Source of the DNA: Spirochaetaceae bacterium
Lineage (GTDB): Bacteria; Spirochaetota; Spirochaetia; SZUA-6; Bin103
Length of the DNA: 36,342 bases
Direction of reading: 5' to 3'
Assembly: GCA_028821475.1 (NCBI GenBank)
Contig: JAPPGB010000015.1
Span: forward strand, 1-36,342
The first letter of the stretch is position 1; every line of letters begins with the position of its first letter. Made by a program: the position numbers and the translations under genes. Shown piece after piece: positions 293-23,760 of the stretch. Under the pieces are notes generated by a model, which saw nothing but the letters and a program-made list of their open reading frames with translations, did no database searches and was not told where the DNA came from.

Positions 293-490
293 CCGAGGGG
301 GTGCAAAATGATACTCAAAGAGCCGCACGCGCGCGCGGCGTGAGCCGGGGTGAACCCGGTGAGTCACACGCCGCGCGCTTCACAAATCTGACTCTGTCTG
401 GCCGGCCGTCTGCGTTGCGGGCGCGAGAGTAGCCAGGGAGCGGCAATCCGTTCCGCAATACCCTCAAGAACACATTTTATGGAGAAAACC
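293..490 (+). promoter_or_regulatory. Conserved dpp leader, copy 1 (upstream of dpp1)
   Basis: This 5' leader closely resembles those at 14782-14978 and, on the minus strand, 23264-23455. It contains an 11-codon ORF at 308-343 and an inverted repeat, GCGCGCGGCGTGA (331-343) against TCACACGCCGCGCGC (364-378), with an inner CCGGG/CCCGG stem at 345-359. Two interleaved complementary pairs follow: GCGTTGCGG (412-420) with CCGTTCCGC (448-456, two mismatches), and GAGAGT (425-430) with ACCCTC (460-465, one mismatch). A CTGGC/GCCAG pair (about 399-403 and 432-436) crosses both. The leader ends at the GGAG ribosome-binding site at 481. This copy is the most degenerate in the second half. Its presence before three paralogous operons suggests cis-regulation; the mechanism is not known. 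Confidence 0.7.
308..343 (+). CDS. Upstream ORF MILKEPHARAA in leader 1
   Basis: Eleven codons (MILKEPHARAA) end in TGA, and the last four codons form the 5' arm of the large GC stem. A purine-rich GAGGGGG lies just before the ATG. Against the copy at 23442-23407, the two differing bases are both third-position and synonymous (CTC/CTG, GAG/GAA), which favours selection on the peptide. A ribosome finishing this ORF would mask the stem, as in leader-peptide attenuation; that link is inference. Confidence 0.55.
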   Translation: MILKEPHARAA

Positions 491-2305
491 ATGAAATATA
501 TCGTAAGCATCAGAATCACCTTCGCGGTTGCGCTGGTCATGATGCTGACCGCGACCGGCCTGTGGGCCACCGGCGCAGACGAGGAGCCGGCAGCCGCCGC
601 CACTGCCGACAGAGAGACGGTGTTCGACCCCGCCACCGGCCAGACGTGGACCGCGCCAGAGTATGGCGGGACACTCACCTGGGCCACCAGGAACTTTCCT
701 GAGAGTACTGACGTGTGGTCGGCTGGTGGCTGGGCGCCTCACTTCATCAGTAGCGTTATAGAGAGGATGACCATTGCCGACTGGGCACTACCCAGGGAAA
801 TGCACGGTACCATGAACTGGGACTATACGGGCCCGGAGATGTACAGAGGCGGTCTGGCCGAAAGCTGGTCAATGGCCGACGACACGACGTTCATCTGGAA
901 CATCCGGCAGGGCGTTAACTGGCATGATAAGCCGCCGGTGAACGGTCGGGAGTTCGATGCTCATGACGTCGTATGGAACTTTCACCGCTATTTTGGTCTG
1001 GGTGAATTCGCCGAAGCCGGACCGAGCCCCCAGCGTTCCATAGTTTATAATCTGGAGTTCCTCTCTGTAACGGCCACCGACAAATGGACCGTTGAGCTCA
1101 AGCTGACGAGGCCTCAGGTGAATGTGGTGCAGTCGCTGTTGCACAGCATGGTTTGGATATACCCCCCCGAGGTATTCGAGGAAGAAGGTGGCTTTGAGGA
1201 CTGGAGGAACCTGGTCGGCACCGGGCCCTATCGACTGACCGACCACGTCGAGGGCAGCTCGGCAACCTGGGAGAAGAATCCCAACTACTGGGGTGTTGAC
1301 GAAAAATTCGGGAACCGCGTGCCCTATATCGACGAGTTACGGGCCCTGAAGATGCCGGACGAGTCAACACGTCTGGCAGCATTGCGCACGGGCAGGATTG
1401 ATATGCTGAGTAACACCGGTGACGCTCACATAACGAATCTCGACAATCTAGAGAGCCTCCAGAAGAGCAATCCTGAACTCGAGGTGTGGCCCGCATATAG
1501 CTTCATACCGGGCACCTTGGTATTTAATCAATCTCGTCCGCTCACTGCCGACATCAATGTGCGCAAGGCACTGCAGATGTCAGTGGACCGCGAAGCAATT
1601 TCCGCTACCTTCTTTAAGGGTTGGGCAGATCCATCACCTTATGGGATATTCCATCAAACTGCCAAAGGGTATGCTTGGCCTTATGAAGAGTGGCCCGACG
1701 AGGTCAAGCGTGAGTATGAGTATCGACCGGATGAAGCAGAAGCGTTGCTCGATGCGGCCGGATATCCTCGCGGCGACGACGGCTATAGATTCAAGATCAC
1801 GGTGAGCAATCTCGTGAGATACGATCCGACCTATGTAGAAATCGTCATGGGTTACTTCGACGCCATTGGCGTTGATAGCGAGCTTAATATTCATAGCGAA
1901 GCTGAGGGTGGAGCTGCCTTTCGCGCGGACACGGTGGAGTGGGAGATATGGGGCGCTGGATATGGATCCTACCGCGGAAGACTACAAGAGGTAGGTCAGG
2001 CGATCCAGAACATTGATAACAGTAGCACCACAAAAGCGGACGATCCGCGTATCGAAGCCCTGTATTATGCCGCCGTTGAAACCACGGACACGGAGGAGCA
2101 TATTGGCTATCAGCGACAGGCCGATGAAATCTCTGTAAGGGAGCACTATGGCCTGGTTAAACCACGCTCCGCCCTTTTTTCCGTGAGCCAGCCGTGGGTG
2201 GAGGGTTTTGTCGGTGAAATGGGTCTTGGCTTCACTGACCGTCATGCCCACTTTTCTCGCGTCTGGATCGATAGTGCGCTGAAGAGAGAAATGACGGGAA
2301 ATTAG
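491..2305 (+). CDS. ABC transporter substrate-binding protein, family 5 (dpp1)
   Basis: A 604-residue periplasmic binding protein of the SBP_bac_5 (DppA/OppA) family captures peptides or oligosaccharides for the permeases encoded next to it. The N-terminus is a signal peptide (MKYIVS, then a hydrophobic run ending GLWATGA at about residue 28) without a lipobox cysteine, so the protein is probably soluble in the periplasm. An acidic/Ala linker follows and then the EYGGTLTWA start of the mature domain. Family landmarks include PPVNGREFDAHDV, LVGTGPYRL, WEKNPNYWG and ALRTGRIDM. I chose ATG 491 rather than the in-frame ATG 479 because GGAG sits at 481-484 and because the paralogues at 14979 and 23263 start at the equivalent ATGAA. 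The substrate is unknown. Confidence 0.93.
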   Translation: MKYIVSIRITFAVALVMMLTATGLWATGADEEPAAAATADRETVFDPATGQTWTAPEYGGTLTWATRNFPESTDVWSAGGWAPHFISSVIERMTIADWALPREMHGTMNWDYTGPEMYRGGLAESWSMADDTTFIWNIRQGVNWHDKPPVNGREFDAHDVVWNFHRYFGLGEFAEAGPSPQRSIVYNLEFLSVTATDKWTVELKLTRPQVNVVQSLLHSMVWIYPPEVFEEEGGFEDWRNLVGTGPYRLTDHVEGSSATWEKNPNYWGVDEKFGNRVPYIDELRALKMPDESTRLAALRTGRIDMLSNTGDAHITNLDNLESLQKSNPELEVWPAYSFIPGTLVFNQSRPLTADINVRKALQMSVDREAISATFFKGWADPSPYGIFHQTAKGYAWPYEEWPDEVKREYEYRPDEAEALLDAAGYPRGDDGYRFKITVSNLVRYDPTYVEIVMGYFDAIGVDSELNIHSEAEGGAAFRADTVEWEIWGAGYGSYRGRLQEVGQAIQNIDNSSTTKADDPRIEALYYAAVETTDTEEHIGYQRQADEISVREHYGLVKPRSALFSVSQPWVEGFVGEMGLGFTDRHAHFSRVWIDSALKREMTGN

Positions 2306-6828: not shown

Positions 6829-7031
6829 AGATTTACAGAGCAGCCTAGAAAGCCCCAACGGCGCACTTGGCCGCGCCCGCGATTGCTCCGCCGCCGCTGG
6901 CGCCGACAGCGCGGCCACTCCCGTAGACATCCACACCCAGCGCCCCTCACGCCCGTGCGGCCGCCGGCGCGCCACCACCACCACCCCGCAAGAAAGCCGG
7001 TGTTACCGGCGAAAACCAAAAACCCGGGCAA

Positions 7032-7046
7032 CGGGTCGCAGACCCG
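7032..7046 (+). other. Small hairpin in the dpp2 5' leader
   Basis: CGGGTC (7032-7037) and GACCCG (7041-7046) flank the triloop GCA, 25 nt before the dpp2 start codon and just upstream of its GGGGGAG ribosome-binding site. This leader shows no similarity to the dpp1/3/4 leaders. Confidence 0.4.
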
Positions 7047-7071
7047 AGGTCCCGAAACAAGGGGGAGCACT

Positions 7072-8862
7072 ATGGCTCTTCGATTCCTTTGGTTCATGAC
7101 ACTGGCGGTCGCGCTGGTGGCTACCGTTACGTTCGCCAGCCCCGCCGGCGAAGACGAGGCGGCGATGGCCGCCGAGAAGGAGTACGTCACCGATCCGTCC
7201 ACCGGCAAGCAGGTGCTCAAGCCGGCGTACGGCGGGACCATTACCGTTGCGCAGCGACCTTTGGGGTTTGACCACGCCGACACCTGGATCAGCCACGCCG
7301 GCGGAGTGTACGCGGGAGCGGCTCTGGACAAGTTGGGCCAAGCCGACTGGGCAGTCGACCGCAGTGTCAACAAAATGGTGACCTACTATCCCGAGAGCGT
7401 CGTCGCCGACCACCTGGCCGAGAGCTGGGAGAACCCGGATCCGTTGACCTACGTCTACAAGATGCGCGACAACGTGTTCTTTCACGACAAGCCGCCGGTG
7501 AACGGTCGCCAGTTTACCGCCGACGACATGGCCGCCAACTACGAGCGCCTGTTCGGCATCGGCAGGTTTGCCGGCCAGGAGCCCGCGGTGCATACCTGGG
7601 GAACAAAAGCCCTGCCCTTCGAGTCGGTAACGGCCACCGACAAGCTGACATTGGTGATCAAGCTGTCGCGGCCGAACGCGGACACCCATCGGCAACTGTT
7701 CGACGACTGCCACGTCCGGGCATATCCGCCCGAGACCTTCGACATGCTCGGCAACGTCAACAACCTGATCGGCACCGGGCCCTTCATGGTGAACGAGTAC
7801 GTCAGCGGCAGTTCGATCACGTGGGACAGGAACCCCAACTACTGGAAGGACGACGAGAAGTACCCGGGGAACCGCCTGCCCTACGCCGACAAGCTCGTGA
7901 TGCTGTTCATGAGCGACGAGGCGACCATTCTTGCGGCACTGCGGTCGGGCCAGATCGATATCGCCGGGGCGACCGGTAACGTGCTGATCAAGTCGATCGC
8001 CAACGCGGTGCAGCTCCAGGAAGATGTCCCGGGCATGCAGCTCTTCCCGATCGCGCGCCGATCGGAGACGTCGTTGGGGATGAGAATGGATAAGCCTCCC
8101 CTTGACGACATCAGGGTGCGCCACGCGCTGCAGATGGCGCTCGACCTGAAGACCGTCACAGACAACTATTACTATGGCTTCGGCGATTGGCAGCCGACGG
8201 GGTCGATCGGGCCTGCGGTGATCGGTTACAACAACCCCTTCGATACCTGGCCCGAGGAACTCAAGAAGTTCTGGTCCTACGACCCGGCGGGTGCCGAGCG
8301 ACTGCTCGATGATGCCGGATACCCACGCGGCGCGGACGGCGTCCGCTTCCAGACCTCGATCCTGACCAGAGTCGACCGGAGCGACGTGGGCTATATGGAG
8401 CTGGTAGCCGGCTACTGGAAGGAGATCGGCGTGGAGGCCGAGATCGAGGCGGTGGACAGCGCCACGTACGAGGGACGGCGCGCGGCGTTGGATTTCGACG
8501 GATTGAAAGACTTCTGGGCCGTCGGCGCCGACTACGGGCAGATGGCCTCTACTCTCGGCCAGTTTCGCGACGACTCAAGCTACAGGGCCGGCACCTTCAG
8601 CGACCCGGTGTTCGAGGCCAAATATGACGAGTTGGACGCTGCCGCTGGTGACGCGGAGGAGCACCGACGGCTGGCGAAGGCGCTCGACATGTACGTCATC
8701 GAGCAGCACCCCTACATCTATGGTCCGCGGGTTCCAGCGTTCAACATTGCGCAGCCATGGATCGTCGGCTACAACGGCGAGATGGCGATCGGCAACTGCG
8801 CCTGGAATGGGCCCTACGCGCGCATGTGGATCGATAGTCAGCTCAAGGCCGAGTTGAACTAA
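7072..8862 (+). CDS. ABC transporter substrate-binding protein, family 5 (dpp2)
   Basis: A 596-residue periplasmic solute-binding protein of the SBP_bac_5 family. The signal peptide (MALRFLWFMTLAVALVATVTF) ends near an ASPAG site without a lipobox Cys. The mature protein begins with the paralogue-like block YVTDPSTGKQVLKPAYGGTI. Family landmarks include KPPVNGRQFTADDM, LIGTGPFMV, WDRNPNYWK and ALRSGQIDIAG. ATG 7072 follows GGGGGAG by 5 nt; the frame is open about 190 nt further upstream but that part is Arg/Pro-rich noise. Its sequence is more GC-rich and more divergent than the other three binding proteins and it lacks their shared leader, suggesting a different history. Substrate unknown. 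Confidence 0.93.
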   Translation: MALRFLWFMTLAVALVATVTFASPAGEDEAAMAAEKEYVTDPSTGKQVLKPAYGGTITVAQRPLGFDHADTWISHAGGVYAGAALDKLGQADWAVDRSVNKMVTYYPESVVADHLAESWENPDPLTYVYKMRDNVFFHDKPPVNGRQFTADDMAANYERLFGIGRFAGQEPAVHTWGTKALPFESVTATDKLTLVIKLSRPNADTHRQLFDDCHVRAYPPETFDMLGNVNNLIGTGPFMVNEYVSGSSITWDRNPNYWKDDEKYPGNRLPYADKLVMLFMSDEATILAALRSGQIDIAGATGNVLIKSIANAVQLQEDVPGMQLFPIARRSETSLGMRMDKPPLDDIRVRHALQMALDLKTVTDNYYYGFGDWQPTGSIGPAVIGYNNPFDTWPEELKKFWSYDPAGAERLLDDAGYPRGADGVRFQTSILTRVDRSDVGYMELVAGYWKEIGVEAEIEAVDSATYEGRRAALDFDGLKDFWAVGADYGQMASTLGQFRDDSSYRAGTFSDPVFEAKYDELDAAAGDAEEHRRLAKALDMYVIEQHPYIYGPRVPAFNIAQPWIVGYNGEMAIGNCAWNGPYARMWIDSQLKAELN

Positions 8863-14520: not shown

Positions 14521-14632
14521 GTCCGAGTCGTTGACAGGCGCGCCGCGCCTATGCTAGCGTGCCTCGCCTGGGGCGACGGATGCCGATGAAGCGCCATGAT
14601 GACAGGCAGCGCAGTGACGGGTTGCCGGTGAC
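14521..14632 (+). promoter_or_regulatory. Shared promoter-like block, dpp3 copy
   Basis: The block starts GTCCGAGTCG and TTGACA (14531-14536), with TATGCTAGC (14550-14558) as a possible -10 region at a short spacing. It continues about 75 nt through ATGACAGGCAGCGCA to GGTTGCCGGTGAC. Nearly the same block occurs on the minus strand at 23760-23652 (dpp4) and 25804-25689 (M20 gene). Conservation beyond the core promoter suggests an operator or 5'-UTR element as well. The -10 assignment is uncertain. Confidence 0.5.
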
Positions 14633-14781: not shown

Positions 14782-14978
14782 CGAAGAAGGAGGTTCGAAT
14801 GATACTCAAAGAACCGCACGCGCGCTCGGCGTGGGCCGGGGTGCACCCGGATGAGTCACACGCCGCGCGCTTAGTGAATCTGACTCAGACTGGCCGTCCG
14901 CGTTGCGTGCCCGAGAGTAGCCAGGGAGCGGTAATCCGCTACGCAATACTCTCAAAAATCACTTCGAATGGAGAAACA
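14782..14978 (+). promoter_or_regulatory. Conserved dpp leader, copy 2 (upstream of dpp3)
   Basis: AAGGAGG (14787-14793) precedes an ATG at 14799 that opens the MILKEPHARSA frame. The GC stem (GCGCTCGGCGTG against CACACGCCGCGCGC ending 14870) has one mismatch compared with the other copies, and the inner CCGGG/CCCGG stem is kept. The interleaved pairs are GCGTTGCGT (14900-14908) with CCGCTACGC (14936-14944, two mismatches) and GAGAGTA (14913-14919) with TACTCTC (14947-14953, perfect). In this copy the upstream ORF has lost its stop (TGA to TGG) and is open, in frame, to the binding-protein gene 180 nt later. Confidence 0.7.
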
Positions 14979-16775
14979 ATGAAGATGTCAATTACAAAGA
15001 CCTTCGCGGTTGCGCTGGTCCTGGTTTTGACCGCATCCGGCCTCTGGGCCACTGGCGCGGAGGAGGAGCCGGGAGCCGCCGCCGAGAAGCGGTATGTGAC
15101 CGACCCCACCACCGGCGAGGTGGTGTTGGCACCGCGGTACGGCGGGACAATCACCACCAGCCAGCCCTGGACGTCTGGTACTGAATGGTCTACTGACACC
15201 TATTTCAACTGGGGGAACAACGTCATCTCAGGCGTTGTGGAGAAGCTCGGCATCGGGGACTGGGGGATAGATAGGGACGTATTTGACTTCAAAAGCCAAT
15301 TCCTCCCTGAAGAATTCATAATAGGGAGGCTGGCGGAAAGCTGGGATATTTCCGCGGACGGGCGCACCTATACCTTCCACATCCGCCCGGGCGTTCACTG
15401 GCATAACAAGGCACCGATGAACGGTCGGGAGCTAACTGCCGCTGATGTCGCTTACAACTACAACCGGGTGTTGGGTCTGGGCGAGTTCAGCGAGGCCGGA
15501 CCGACCGAAATGCCTTTCCCAGCCAAAACCGTCCCATGGGAATCGATAACGGCCACCGACGATGCGACGGTCGTGATAAAGCTGAAGGAGCCGTGGCTCC
15601 CTGCGCTGACGAGTATGCTCGTCGATCCCGCTTTTTTCATATTGCCCCCCGAGGTAATCGAGCAACACGGCGACGTCAAGGACTGGAGGAACCTGGTCGG
15701 CACCGGGCCCTTTATGATGGTTGACCGAGTCGCGGGCACCTCTATCACCTGGGTCAAGAACCCTGACTACTGGGGCCATGACGAAAAATTCCCAAAAAAC
15801 CGCTTGCCCTACGTTGACGAGTTAAAGGTTTTGGTCATTCCAGAGTTAGCATCAATTTTTGCAGCACTACGCGCCGGCAAGCTTGATTACCAGCGGCAGG
15901 AAACTGACTTGGACGCGGTACTGAGCCTACAGCGGACCAACCCGGAAATCAAGACGTACTTTTTCTACTTTCGGTCGAATGATTCTTTTGAACTTGACAT
16001 TCGTAAGCCGCCCTTTGACGACATCAACGTGCGCCACGCAATGCAGTTGGCACTCGACAACGAGACTTCGGCGGCTACGCTCTGGTCGGGTCGAGCAGAT
16101 CCGACACCGTTCGGGTTGATAGGGAATAAGGGGTATTACATCCCATTTGAGGAGTGGCCCGCCGAGGTCAAGCAATGGTACCGGTATGACCCGGAAGCTG
16201 CCGAGAAGCTCCTTGATGAGGCGGGATATCCGCGCGACGCAGACGGTATTAGATTCAAGACCATCCTGAATTACGGGCCTTTTGGGGCAAGCTTGGACCA
16301 TGCACAAATAGCTGCCGCCTACTGGGCTGAGATTGGCGTCGAGGTCGAGGTTGATAATCTGGCTTGGAGCGCATTTAACGAGAGGGTAGCCTCGGGTGAG
16401 TTTGAAGGCATCACCTCCGCCATTGCGGGCGCCAGGTTCGACCCCAAGGATATGGTAGACTGGTTGCGCACGGATCATCCGACCCTTAACAAGAGCGGAC
16501 ACCAGTTTCATGAGCTCGATGCCATGGTCGATGCCGCCCTGGCCGCTAAGACCATCGAGGAGCAGAAGAGGCTGATTGCAGAAGCAGACATGTACGCGGT
16601 AGAGAAGCACTACCGTATATGGGGTCCTAGAGGTCCACAATTCTATTTTGCTCAGCCGTGGCTCATAGGCTATAACGGCGAAATGGACTCAGGCGCCTTT
16701 GGTGGCGGGGAGTTCTATGTCCAGTACGCCCGCTTCTGGCTTGACCACGAGCTGAAGGAGGCAATGGGTAACTAA
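14979..16775 (+). CDS. ABC transporter substrate-binding protein, family 5 (dpp3)
   Basis: A 598-residue SBP_bac_5 periplasmic binding protein, a close relative of the dpp1 and dpp4 proteins. Its signal peptide (KTFAVALVLVLTASGLWATGA) has no lipobox Cys. Landmarks are RYGGTITTSQPW, APMNGRELTAADVAYNYNR, LVGTGPFMM, WVKNPDYWG and ALRAGKLDY. ATG 14979 has GGAG 9 nt upstream and matches the start of the paralogues. An in-frame, well-initiated upstream ATG at 14799 could add 60 residues through the leader and would bury the signal peptide, so I take it as the leader ORF instead. Substrate unknown. Confidence 0.92.
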   Translation: MKMSITKTFAVALVLVLTASGLWATGAEEEPGAAAEKRYVTDPTTGEVVLAPRYGGTITTSQPWTSGTEWSTDTYFNWGNNVISGVVEKLGIGDWGIDRDVFDFKSQFLPEEFIIGRLAESWDISADGRTYTFHIRPGVHWHNKAPMNGRELTAADVAYNYNRVLGLGEFSEAGPTEMPFPAKTVPWESITATDDATVVIKLKEPWLPALTSMLVDPAFFILPPEVIEQHGDVKDWRNLVGTGPFMMVDRVAGTSITWVKNPDYWGHDEKFPKNRLPYVDELKVLVIPELASIFAALRAGKLDYQRQETDLDAVLSLQRTNPEIKTYFFYFRSNDSFELDIRKPPFDDINVRHAMQLALDNETSAATLWSGRADPTPFGLIGNKGYYIPFEEWPAEVKQWYRYDPEAAEKLLDEAGYPRDADGIRFKTILNYGPFGASLDHAQIAAAYWAEIGVEVEVDNLAWSAFNERVASGEFEGITSAIAGARFDPKDMVDWLRTDHPTLNKSGHQFHELDAMVDAALAAKTIEEQKRLIAEADMYAVEKHYRIWGPRGPQFYFAQPWLIGYNGEMDSGAFGGGEFYVQYARFWLDHELKEAMGN

Positions 16776-21454: not shown

Positions 21455-23263
21455 CTAATAGCCCATGGATTCCTTCAGTTCGCTATCAATCCAAAGGCGG
21501 ACGAGAACGCTTTGCTCATGCATGACTGTGTTCAAGGTCTCTCCGTTAAAACCTTTCACCCACGGATGGCTGTGCTGATACCTTGGAGCCAGCGGACCCC
21601 ATATCTGAAAGTGCTGCTTTATTGCTTCCATACCAAACTCTTTTGCCGCCTTCATCTGCTCATCGACGCTAGTGGCACCGTGATAGGCAGCGTGGGCGGC
21701 GGCCAGCACAGGGCTCTCGACTCCGGCCCCCAGGTGTGCCCTTCGCCATAGGAGGCCCGCGTTATAATGTCCCATGGCCCAGCCCGGGGACTCTATGGCC
21801 ATGTAGCCATAAATCGACTCATAGTCATGTTCTGTCTTAGCAGCGGCTATAGTCGCCCAGTCGGTAACCCTGATCGATGCATCAACGCCAATATCAGCCC
21901 AGTAGCCGGCGACTATTTCTACATAGCCCAAATCTCCGACGTCGCGGTGCACATGTTCGAACTTGAATCGGACGCCGTCCGCGCCGCGCGGATATCCTGC
22001 CTCATCAAGGAGCCTCTCGGCACCTTCCGGGTCGTAGGTGTAGTATCCCTTGAGCTCTGCGGGCCACTCTTCCCATTCGGTGTAATACCCCTTGGTGCCA
22101 ATGTAGCGAGGAGGGTGCCAGTCGGCGAAACCGCCAAAGTAGGTATCGTTAATCGTCTCCTGGTCCAGTGCCATCTGCAGTGCGTGGCGTACTCTGATGT
22201 CGTCAAAGGGTGGCTTGCGAATGTTCAGTATGATGGCATCCAACGAGCGCTGGTAAAATGGCCATACCTCGAGTTCGGGATTGGTCCGCTGGAGGCTCTT
22301 TACCACGTCGATGGATTGTATCTCAGCACCGGAGAGGCGTGTCATATCAATCTTACCCGAGCGCAGTGCCGATAGACGGGTCGCTTCTTCTGCCATATAC
22401 AGGCCCACTAACTTGTCAATATACGGCAAACGGTTCTCCGGGTATTTTTCGTCGTAGCCCCAGTAGTCAGGATTCTTGGTCCAGGTTTTGGAGACGCCTT
22501 CGACGTAGTCGGTCAGCATCATGGGCCCGGTGCCGACCACGTTCTTCCAGTCCGTATAGTCGCCGTATTTCTCGATTACCTCGGGGGGCAATATCCAGAA
22601 CCCAACTTCGGTGACGATAAGCTGCAGCGCATCGAGGTTTGGCTCCGTCAACTTCATAACAACCGTGTATTTGTCGGTGGCCTCTATCGATTCCCATGGC
22701 AGAAAGGAAGCTTGTTTGGTCTCTTGAGGAGGTTCGGTGAAATCGCCCATCGCCAACTGACGGTGAAAGTTAAATACGACATCATCGGCAGTTAGCTCCC
22801 GACCACCTACCAGGCGGCTGGCCTCACTGTCTGGATCAAGGGCGTAGTGAACGCCCTGGCGGACGTTGATGATATAGGTCAGCGGGTCGGGTTGCTCCCA
22901 GCTTTCCGCCAGCTCCTCTGTCCAAGTAAACAGAGGGACGTAGGGCCCATTAAAGGCGAATTCGTTCCTATCCAGACCCCAGTTCGGGACGGCGAGATTC
23001 TGATTGACACCGCCTATGAGCATGCCCGCATAGCCGCCAGTAACAAAGGGGTCGGTAGTTTCGCCTATCAAGGCATACGGAAAGGTCAATGTCCCGCCGT
23101 ACTGTGGCGCCGTCACCGCCTTGCCGGTGGTGGGGTCGGTCACCATTTCCTTCTCCATCGCCGCTGCCGGCGCCTCTTCCGTGCCAGCGCCAGCCCAGAG
23201 GCCGGTTGCGCTCAGAATCAGGACCAACGCAACCGCGAAGGTCCTTGCAATGAATACCTTCAT
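21455..23263 (-). CDS. ABC transporter substrate-binding protein, family 5 (dpp4)
   Basis: A 602-residue SBP_bac_5 periplasmic protein. The signal peptide (RTFAVALVLILSATGLWAGAG) lacks a lipobox Cys. The mature part starts MVTDPTTGKAVTAPQYGGTL and carries GGRELTADDVVFNFHR, VVGTGPMML, WTKNPDYWG, ALRSGKIDM and HALQMALDQ. AAGGAG lies a few nt upstream of ATG 23263. It is preceded by leader copy 3 and, further up, by the promoter-like block shared with dpp3. Compared with dpp1 and dpp3 it has a longer insertion around residues 105-125. Substrate unknown. Confidence 0.93.
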   Translation of the reverse strand: MKVFIARTFAVALVLILSATGLWAGAGTEEAPAAAMEKEMVTDPTTGKAVTAPQYGGTLTFPYALIGETTDPFVTGGYAGMLIGGVNQNLAVPNWGLDRNEFAFNGPYVPLFTWTEELAESWEQPDPLTYIINVRQGVHYALDPDSEASRLVGGRELTADDVVFNFHRQLAMGDFTEPPQETKQASFLPWESIEATDKYTVVMKLTEPNLDALQLIVTEVGFWILPPEVIEKYGDYTDWKNVVGTGPMMLTDYVEGVSKTWTKNPDYWGYDEKYPENRLPYIDKLVGLYMAEEATRLSALRSGKIDMTRLSGAEIQSIDVVKSLQRTNPELEVWPFYQRSLDAIILNIRKPPFDDIRVRHALQMALDQETINDTYFGGFADWHPPRYIGTKGYYTEWEEWPAELKGYYTYDPEGAERLLDEAGYPRGADGVRFKFEHVHRDVGDLGYVEIVAGYWADIGVDASIRVTDWATIAAAKTEHDYESIYGYMAIESPGWAMGHYNAGLLWRRAHLGAGVESPVLAAAHAAYHGATSVDEQMKAAKEFGMEAIKQHFQIWGPLAPRYQHSHPWVKGFNGETLNTVMHEQSVLVRLWIDSELKESMGY

Positions 23264-23455
23264 CGTTTCTCCTTGAATGTTACTTCGAGAGTATTGCGTA
23301 GCGGATTGGCGCTCCCTGGCTACTCTCGCGCCCGCTACGCGGACGGCCAGTCAGAGCCAAATACACTGAAAGCGCGCGGCGTGTGACTCGGCGGGTTCAC
23401 CCGGGCTCACGCCGCGCGCGCGTGCGGTTCTTTCAGTATCATCTTCACCTCCTGT
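23264..23455 (-). promoter_or_regulatory. Conserved dpp leader, copy 3 (upstream of dpp4)
   Basis: This is the best-preserved copy. On the minus strand, AGGAGGTGAAG initiates the MILKEPHARAA ORF (23442-23407). The large GC stem and its inner GGG/CCC stem follow. Then GCGTAGCGG (23340-23332) is perfectly complementary to CCGCTACGC (23304-23296), and CGAGAGTA (23328-23321) to TACTCTCG (23293-23286). The two pairs are interleaved, so they can form a pseudoknot or compete as alternative structures just before the AAGGAG ribosome-binding site. CTGGC/GCCAG offers a third competing pairing. Confidence 0.75.
23407..23442 (-). CDS. Upstream ORF MILKEPHARAA in leader 3
   Basis: An 11-codon ORF with a near-perfect Shine-Dalgarno sequence (AGGAGGTG, 4 nt before ATG). 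The peptide is identical to that in leader 1 although the DNA differs at two synonymous third positions. Its stop codon lies within the 5' arm of the GC stem, so translation and folding should compete. Confidence 0.6.
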   Translation of the reverse strand: MILKEPHARAA

Positions 23456-23651
23456 GCGCCGGCACAAACCGGAAAGGTGTCGTGAGTGGAAGAGTCATAC
23501 GTCGAAGGGTTAGCGACCCACGGCGGCTCCGATTCATGCGCCGTCGCCCGCGAGGGCGGGGGTGAAGCGTTGACCGGGGTACGTGCGGGCCGGGTATCGA
23601 GCCGCGAAAGGAATTACTTTGGGGTGCCGACGCCGTAGGAGGATGCGGAAG

Positions 23652-23760
23652 GCCACAAACCGGTCATTGCGCTGCCTGTCATCGTGACCCTTCATGACCA
23701 TCCGTCGAACCCCATGTGAGGCACGCTAGCATAGGCGCGGCGCGCCTGTCAACGACTCGG
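23652..23760 (-). promoter_or_regulatory. Shared promoter-like block, dpp4 copy
   Basis: On the minus strand, GAGTCG-TTGACA (-35 at 23752-23747) and the following CGCGCCTATGCTAGCGTGCCTC are nearly identical to the dpp3 block at 14521-14632, and the similarity continues to ATGACAGGCAGCGCAATGACCGG. It lies about 300 nt upstream of the leader ORF, so the implied 5' UTR is long. The -10 hexamer is uncertain. Confidence 0.5.

Follow-up and report, generated by a model that had tools for sequence, protein, structure and literature searches.

A pseudoknot-bearing leader, found in a single genus, precedes paralogous family-5 binding-protein operons in a Spirochaetaceae bacterium

We analyzed a window of 36,342 nucleotides, the stretch from position 1 to 36,342 of contig JAPPGB010000015.1 of a Spirochaetaceae bacterium (GCA_028821475.1). 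Three leaders that are homologous to one another (293-490 and 14782-14978 on the plus strand; 23455-23264 on the minus strand) each precede an SBP_bac_5 gene, which belongs to the family-5 binding proteins (SBPs), followed by two permease genes (3/3 operons). In all three, the order is a Shine-Dalgarno (SD)-like block, an NTG start, an open reading frame (mini-ORF), a GC stem, a CTGGC...GCCAG element and the SBP start. These places and this order agree with a preliminary description of the DNA, and the recurrence of the leader about 30 times in the genome, with E values down to 1e-105, lies beyond chance. The 11-codon ORF that had been ascribed to every copy is found in copies 1 and 3, which have a TGA stop, but not in copy 2 (start at 14799), where codon 12 is TGG and a frame of 658 codons runs into the SBP gene. 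Similarly, the CTGGC...GCCAG element is present as described, but it corresponds to stem 1 of a predicted pseudoknot whose stem 2 (GAGAGTA/TACTCTC) had been missed. The features are as follows.

295-303, plus strand: SD-like block of copy 1, GAGGGGGTG
308-343, plus strand: mini-ORF of copy 1, MILKEPHARAA and stop
331-378, plus strand: GC stem P1 of Domain I, copy 1, arms 331-342 and 367-378; 96.5% of cells paired over 29 copies
361-394, plus strand: P3 of Domain I, copy 1, GAGTCA (361-366) with TGACTC (389-394); crosses P1, possible pseudoknot; 94.3% of cells paired
398-436, plus strand: stem 1 of Domain II, copy 1, CTGGC (398-402) with GCCAG (432-436)
407-423, plus strand: hairpin H1 inside stem 1, copy 1, CGTCTGCGTTGCGGGCG; 97.6% of cells paired
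423-468, plus strand: match to model R3, copy 1
425-465, plus strand: stem 2 of Domain II, copy 1, GAGAGTA (425-431) with TACCCTC (459-465); strong covariation in 30 diverse leaders
437-454, plus strand: hairpin H2 between the stem-2 arms, copy 1
479-493, plus strand: SBP SD (GGAG) of copy 1, in the loop of a weak predicted ATGG/CCAT hairpin that covers the start codon at 491
491-2305, plus strand: SBP_bac_5 gene of operon 1
14531-14560, plus strand: promoter-like TTGACA...TATGCTAGCGT before copy 2; an identical sequence stands before copy 3
14787-14794, plus strand: SD of copy 2, 8 nt, AAGGAGGT
14799-14834, plus strand: start of the copy 2 mini-ORF; codon 12 is TGG, no stop, in frame into the SBP gene
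14822-14886, plus strand: Domain I of copy 2, P1 arms about 14822-14833 and 14859-14870, P3 14853-14858 with 14881-14886
14890-14953, plus strand: Domain II predicted pseudoknot of copy 2, stem 1 14890-14894 with 14920-14924, stem 2 14913-14919 with 14947-14953
14979-16775, plus strand: SBP_bac_5 gene of operon 2
23446-23454, minus strand: SD of copy 3, CAGGAGGTG
23407-23442, minus strand: mini-ORF of copy 3, MILKEPHARAA and stop
23354-23419, minus strand: Domain I of copy 3, P1 arms 23408-23419 and 23372-23383, P3 23384-23389 with 23354-23359
23287-23350, minus strand: Domain II predicted pseudoknot of copy 3, stem 1 23346-23350 with 23316-23320, stem 2 23321-23327 with 23287-23293
21455-23263, minus strand: SBP_bac_5 gene of operon 3

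A fourth SBP gene of the window (7072-8862) has a different leader at 6996-7054, in which GCCGGTGTTACCGGC is followed by CGGGCAACGGGTCGCAGACCCGAGGTCCCG. This arrangement recurs, altered but self-complementary, at about eight SBPs (L044, L045, L057, L059, L066, L183, L200 and L221), and these leaders appear to form a second structured class. Group II intron remnants (matches to RF02005 with 102-182 bits) occur at 23491-23684 of the window on the plus strand and likewise at L009, L011, L014 and L026. Several leaders are directly preceded by a remnant in antisense orientation, whose 5' edge lies close to the leader SD; in L026, a remnant lies in sense inside the leader after Domain I. Runs of about 7-14 C residues, which differ in length between copies, are found at about 49-56 of the window and upstream of L005, L012, L014, L019, L022, L026, L029, L031 and L033. 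In several cases the run stands between a promoter-like sequence and the leader, and several contigs end nearby; these runs may be slippage (phase-variable) tracts. Upstream of another pseudoknot leader, L050, there are about four tandem copies of a unit of about 22 nt, GGAACCGGGTGCCACCCAAGAA.

A DNA search of the bacterium's own genome (G000; 5.73 Mb, 183 contigs) returned about 30 near-identical leader copies in addition to diverged ones, and nearly all of the near-identical copies precede SBP genes with a common signal peptide ending ATGLWA. The same genome holds 134 SBP_bac_5 Pfam matches, an extreme expansion for 5.7 Mb. When 61 genomes were searched at the DNA level (its own and 60 relatives), matches outside its own genome occurred only in a congener, G002. 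Model R1, which represents Domain I, matched 29 times in its own genome and 5 times in the congener, and model R2, which represents Domain II, matched 33 and 4 times, respectively; the order's 24 remaining genomes yielded no match to either model. Extending R2 to 395 genomes of the class brought one weak extra match (L144, in G263), which we rejected as a homologue in another family; it is merely a GC hairpin between cistrons, judged to be chance.

Model R3, built on the short Domain II core, gave 47 matches in the 5.73 Mb at E up to 0.1, all of them directly upstream of SBP genes: 46 are followed, after 42-382 nt and in the same orientation, by an SBP_bac_5 domain, and the remaining one precedes an SBP cut by the contig end. 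The R3 training sequences came from this genome and the congener and had all been picked upstream of SBP genes, so that the training members match before SBPs by construction; that choice does not explain why no further match falls elsewhere in the 5.73 Mb. In the congener R3 matched 8 times, which together with the 47 matches provides the homologues beyond the three-leader locus that the preliminary description had asked for. A match in G024 (E 0.06) has no SBP context, and at E up to 0.01 none of the 395 class genomes other than its own and G002 had a match. In the genomes searched, the leader is an element restricted to one genus. The NTGRTACKCAARGAACC motif before other genes gave matches at control level beyond the known leaders and one copy, L137 (contig C86 of G002, minus strand). 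There, the leader has an SD and a mini-ORF, MVRKEPAARGVRG, with a stop codon that overlaps the GTG at which an NHL-like gene begins; it is the sole Domain I relative seen ahead of a non-SBP gene. A pattern scan of public genomes returned 8 matches in unrelated genomes, apparently by chance, and a viral scan returned none.

No Rfam family matches the leader above its gathering score, and a permissive threshold gave chance-level matches or none; the sole Rfam match nearby is a group II intron adjoining the leader. The literature covered, which is thin on subscription journals, describes no such leader for SBP genes. The idea that SBP operons here have a functional, uncatalogued leader in common is supported, and we regard it as a previously uncatalogued structured cis-regulatory leader, of a kind that as such is already known.

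Diverged copies (L135-L141) led us to a structural reading of both domains. The 3' half of the leader, Domain II, is predicted to fold as an H-type pseudoknot and constitutes the constant part of the element. A hairpin lies between the 5' arm of stem 1 and stem 2, and the domain ends 15-45 nt before the SBP start. SBP leaders without a BLAST-detectable copy have the same layout in other letters, e.g., CCCTCGC...GAGAGTA-GCGAGGG...CACTCTC. A sequence-blind scan of 92 other SBP leaders for two crossing stems placed at the top the leaders of eight SBPs of one signal-peptide class, each of which beats 40/40 dinucleotide shuffles, where about two such leaders are expected. For stem 2, we used an alignment of 30 diverse leaders (A4), in which 4/7 pairs are compensated, 92.8% of cells pair and pairing is lost when the partner is slid. 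Changes on both sides were counted in 15 cells versus 4.5 in shuffles, a value reached by 0/500 shuffles, and the covariation that had been suggested as a check is therefore present. The segment ends of A4 were set by hand from the two stem-2 arms, which biases the paired-cell count toward structure; more weight therefore rests on the both-side changes. The arms of stem 1 score 14.6 with their own partner, as compared with 8.8 for swapped arms and 9.6 for shuffled upstream sequence, and this test rests on those controls because the partner was sought by complementarity. Stem 1 takes the forms CTGGC/GCCAG, TTGCC/GGCAG, CCCTCGC/GCGAGGG and TTCGC/GCGAA. A conserved unpaired motif, AGGG-RSCGGCA, adjoins the covarying stems. 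Predictions give the SBP start region only weak structure; the ATGG/CCAT hairpin over the start, which is conserved in about half of the copies, is weakly supported.

Domain I combines the GC stem P1 (12 bp), which lies over the end of the mini-ORF, with P3 (GAGTCA/TGACTC). Variation in P1 is mostly one-sided, and in P3 one pair is compensated in three cells. The whole structure shows 6 both-side changes versus 2.6 in shuffles; because this excess is modest, we regard Domain I as a likely, not proven, second pseudoknot, with weaker support than Domain II. A pairing of mini-ORF codons 2-4 with the P1 loop (ACTCA/TGAGT) was rejected for showing no covariation. The mini-ORF end does cover one P1 arm in close copies, as had been proposed, and ribosome control of P1 folding is possible. 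By eye, the aligned copies showed no U-tract after P1 or H2. The two modules are separable, since Domain II occurs alone at L025, L028 and L055 (in L025 and L028 directly after promoter-like sequence), and L015, L020 and L026 have only or mainly Domain I.

Two synonymous differences between copies had been taken as a sign of selection on the peptide MILKEPHARAA. Both differences, GAG/GAA in copy 1 and CTG/CTC in copy 3, do leave the amino acid unchanged, but there is no significant enrichment over 17 variants, whose distinct changes in codons 2-6 comprise 5 synonymous and 9 nonsynonymous (5/14 versus 24% expected). Most close copies start with ATG, GTG, TTG or CTG, the start is lost in six or more (L016, L022, L026, L030, L033 and L139), and the stop is changed in three others (L001, L002 and L008). 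The upstream SD varies and is degenerate or weak in several standard copies. Among diverged pseudoknot leaders, 7/15 have an SD-led short ORF versus 2/77 other SBP leaders (p=2e-5, which overstates independence because the 7/15 leaders are partly related). The ORFs of the diverged leaders encode M, L, MSK or VKR before the stop, that is, 1-3 codons of unrelated residues. L214 and L274, which are apparent orthologues, have AUG-UAG and GUG-UAG, respectively, behind AAGGAGGTG and keep the SD and start with no peptide. Since the SD and start are kept with such ORFs, the peptide is not the conserved feature; the codon test, the losses of start and stop and the reduction of the ORF in diverged leaders argue against selection on it. 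Taken together, these comparisons suggest that the ribosome-binding signal is kept, the start codon less strictly, and that the peptide sequence is dispensable.

We tentatively propose, at a probability of roughly 0.4, that the leader is a lineage-specific cis-regulatory RNA in which the loading of ribosomes at the upstream SD and the folding of the pseudoknot together set SBP translation. The observations that bear on this proposal are the conservation of sequence and structure, the covariation, the exclusive placement before SBPs, the association with an SD and the dispensable peptide. The weak predicted structure at the SBP start, the variable upstream SD, the separable modules and the modest covariation of Domain I weigh against it. 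About 47 paralogous family-5 SBP operons would have the element in their 5' UTR, with the Domain II pseudoknot as its constant part. Many copies have, in addition, an upstream module in which a strong SD precedes a start codon and a very short frame of 1 to about 14 codons; most commonly, the second pseudoknot-capable GC hairpin of Domain I follows this ORF. We infer the loading, the gating, the direction of the effect and the signal: 30S subunits would load at the upstream SD or mini-ORF, which would act as a standby site, and how readily the weak SBP start site is reached would depend on ribosome traffic and pseudoknot folding. Either the pseudoknot may bring in the ribosome (compare S1-binding pseudoknots) or it may gate it. 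The result would be one global translational control over many importers. It is doubtful, in our estimation, that the leader represents a new cis-regulatory class in which ribosomes, loaded at a start-stop mini-ORF or an extended SD, meet a downstream pseudoknot that serves about 47 paralogous importers as a common translational gate. If it does, one signal sets the expression of the whole expanded transporter repertoire. At least 47 genes, in one bacterium with 134 family-5 SBP matches, have a common RNA fold of which every genomic match is pre-SBP, and the leader family lets one ask how the RNA level coordinates an extreme importer expansion; the start-stop mini-ORFs offer a direct test of leader translation versus mere ribosome docking.

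The main rival is a ligand- or protein-binding pseudoknot, and such a role would leave the same traces as translational control. In this riboswitch or protein-responsive leader, Domain II would bind a metabolite, a ribosomal protein or a dedicated regulator signalling nutrient state, with the mini-ORF as an accessory. The compact pseudoknot just before the start codon, the unpaired AGGG-RSCGGCA beside covarying stems and the SBPs that have Domain II alone fit this explanation. However, a substrate sensor would be odd in a leader common to about 47 importers, whose substrates presumably differ, and the missing Rfam match and the restriction to one genus among 395 class genomes also weigh against it, which makes binding of a ligand or protein somewhat doubtful. 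We consider it unlikely that the leader is a structured 5' UTR that mainly stabilises or insulates abundant SBP messages and conveys no specific signal. A conserved fold, separable modules and placement before the SBP genes of large importer operons would be expected of such a leader, but it would need neither the conserved unpaired motif nor a strong SD upstream. That MILKEPHARAA serves as an arrest peptide or in amino-acid attenuation, a reading of the preliminary description, is very improbable: most close copies have an SD, start and stop, and the ORF end overlaps the P1 arm, but diverged leaders lack the peptide or reduce it to 1-3 codons, several copies have lost start or stop, the synonymous share is not significantly raised, no U-tract terminator was seen in the sequence, and no conserved peptide was found at a stall site. 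Least credible of all is that the leader is passive DNA that was copied, or spread by gene conversion, together with duplicating SBP genes. The tracking of signal-peptide class by leader class, the recombined modules and the nearby group II introns would agree with this, but conserved cores with diverged linkers and compensatory change between distant arms argue against it: in standard copies, identity is 0.85-0.92 in 20-column domain blocks and 0.56-0.67 in loop and linker stretches, the latter at the background divergence of four-fold sites in the attached SBP genes (about 0.6 on average).

The leader resembles several known systems in part. SAM-II, preQ1 and other H-type pseudoknot riboswitches are compact and lie close to the start codon, as Domain II does, but the leader differs from them in the hairpin inserted in loop 1, in matching no Rfam family and in having no known ligand gene context. 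In the repZ leader of IncI-alpha plasmids, translation of the RepY leader peptide unfolds a stem, after which a pseudoknot opens the downstream start. The SBP leader similarly has a short ORF in a pseudoknot leader, with the ORF end overlapping P1 in close copies; unlike repZ, its ORF is missing or often 1-3 codons long and no antisense RNA was seen. Moreover, repZ is a single plasmid gene, whereas the SBP leader marks a chromosomal regulon, and similarity is not expected. In the timP leader of Salmonella, a 5' UTR pseudoknot activates translation and is regulated by an sRNA (PMC11295053); the likeness, by description only, is the pseudoknot in the 5' UTR, and the gene class is another. In tisB, an E. 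coli type I toxin mRNA, the RBS is sequestered, and a standby site with an indispensable pseudoknot lies about 100 nt further upstream (PMC7708055). Unlike in tisB, the upstream site of the leader includes an SD and, in most cases, a start codon, and the pseudoknot lies between that site and the gene; the leader has no known toxin or antisense RNA, it is spread over about 47 paralogous operons, and no homology is claimed. Like tisB, it has a predicted H-type pseudoknot in the 5' UTR, to which stem 2 covariation and the exchange of stem 1 partners point, and it may have a far-upstream ribosome-loading site: many copies have an upstream SD, but the SBP RBS is only weakly sequestered by prediction.
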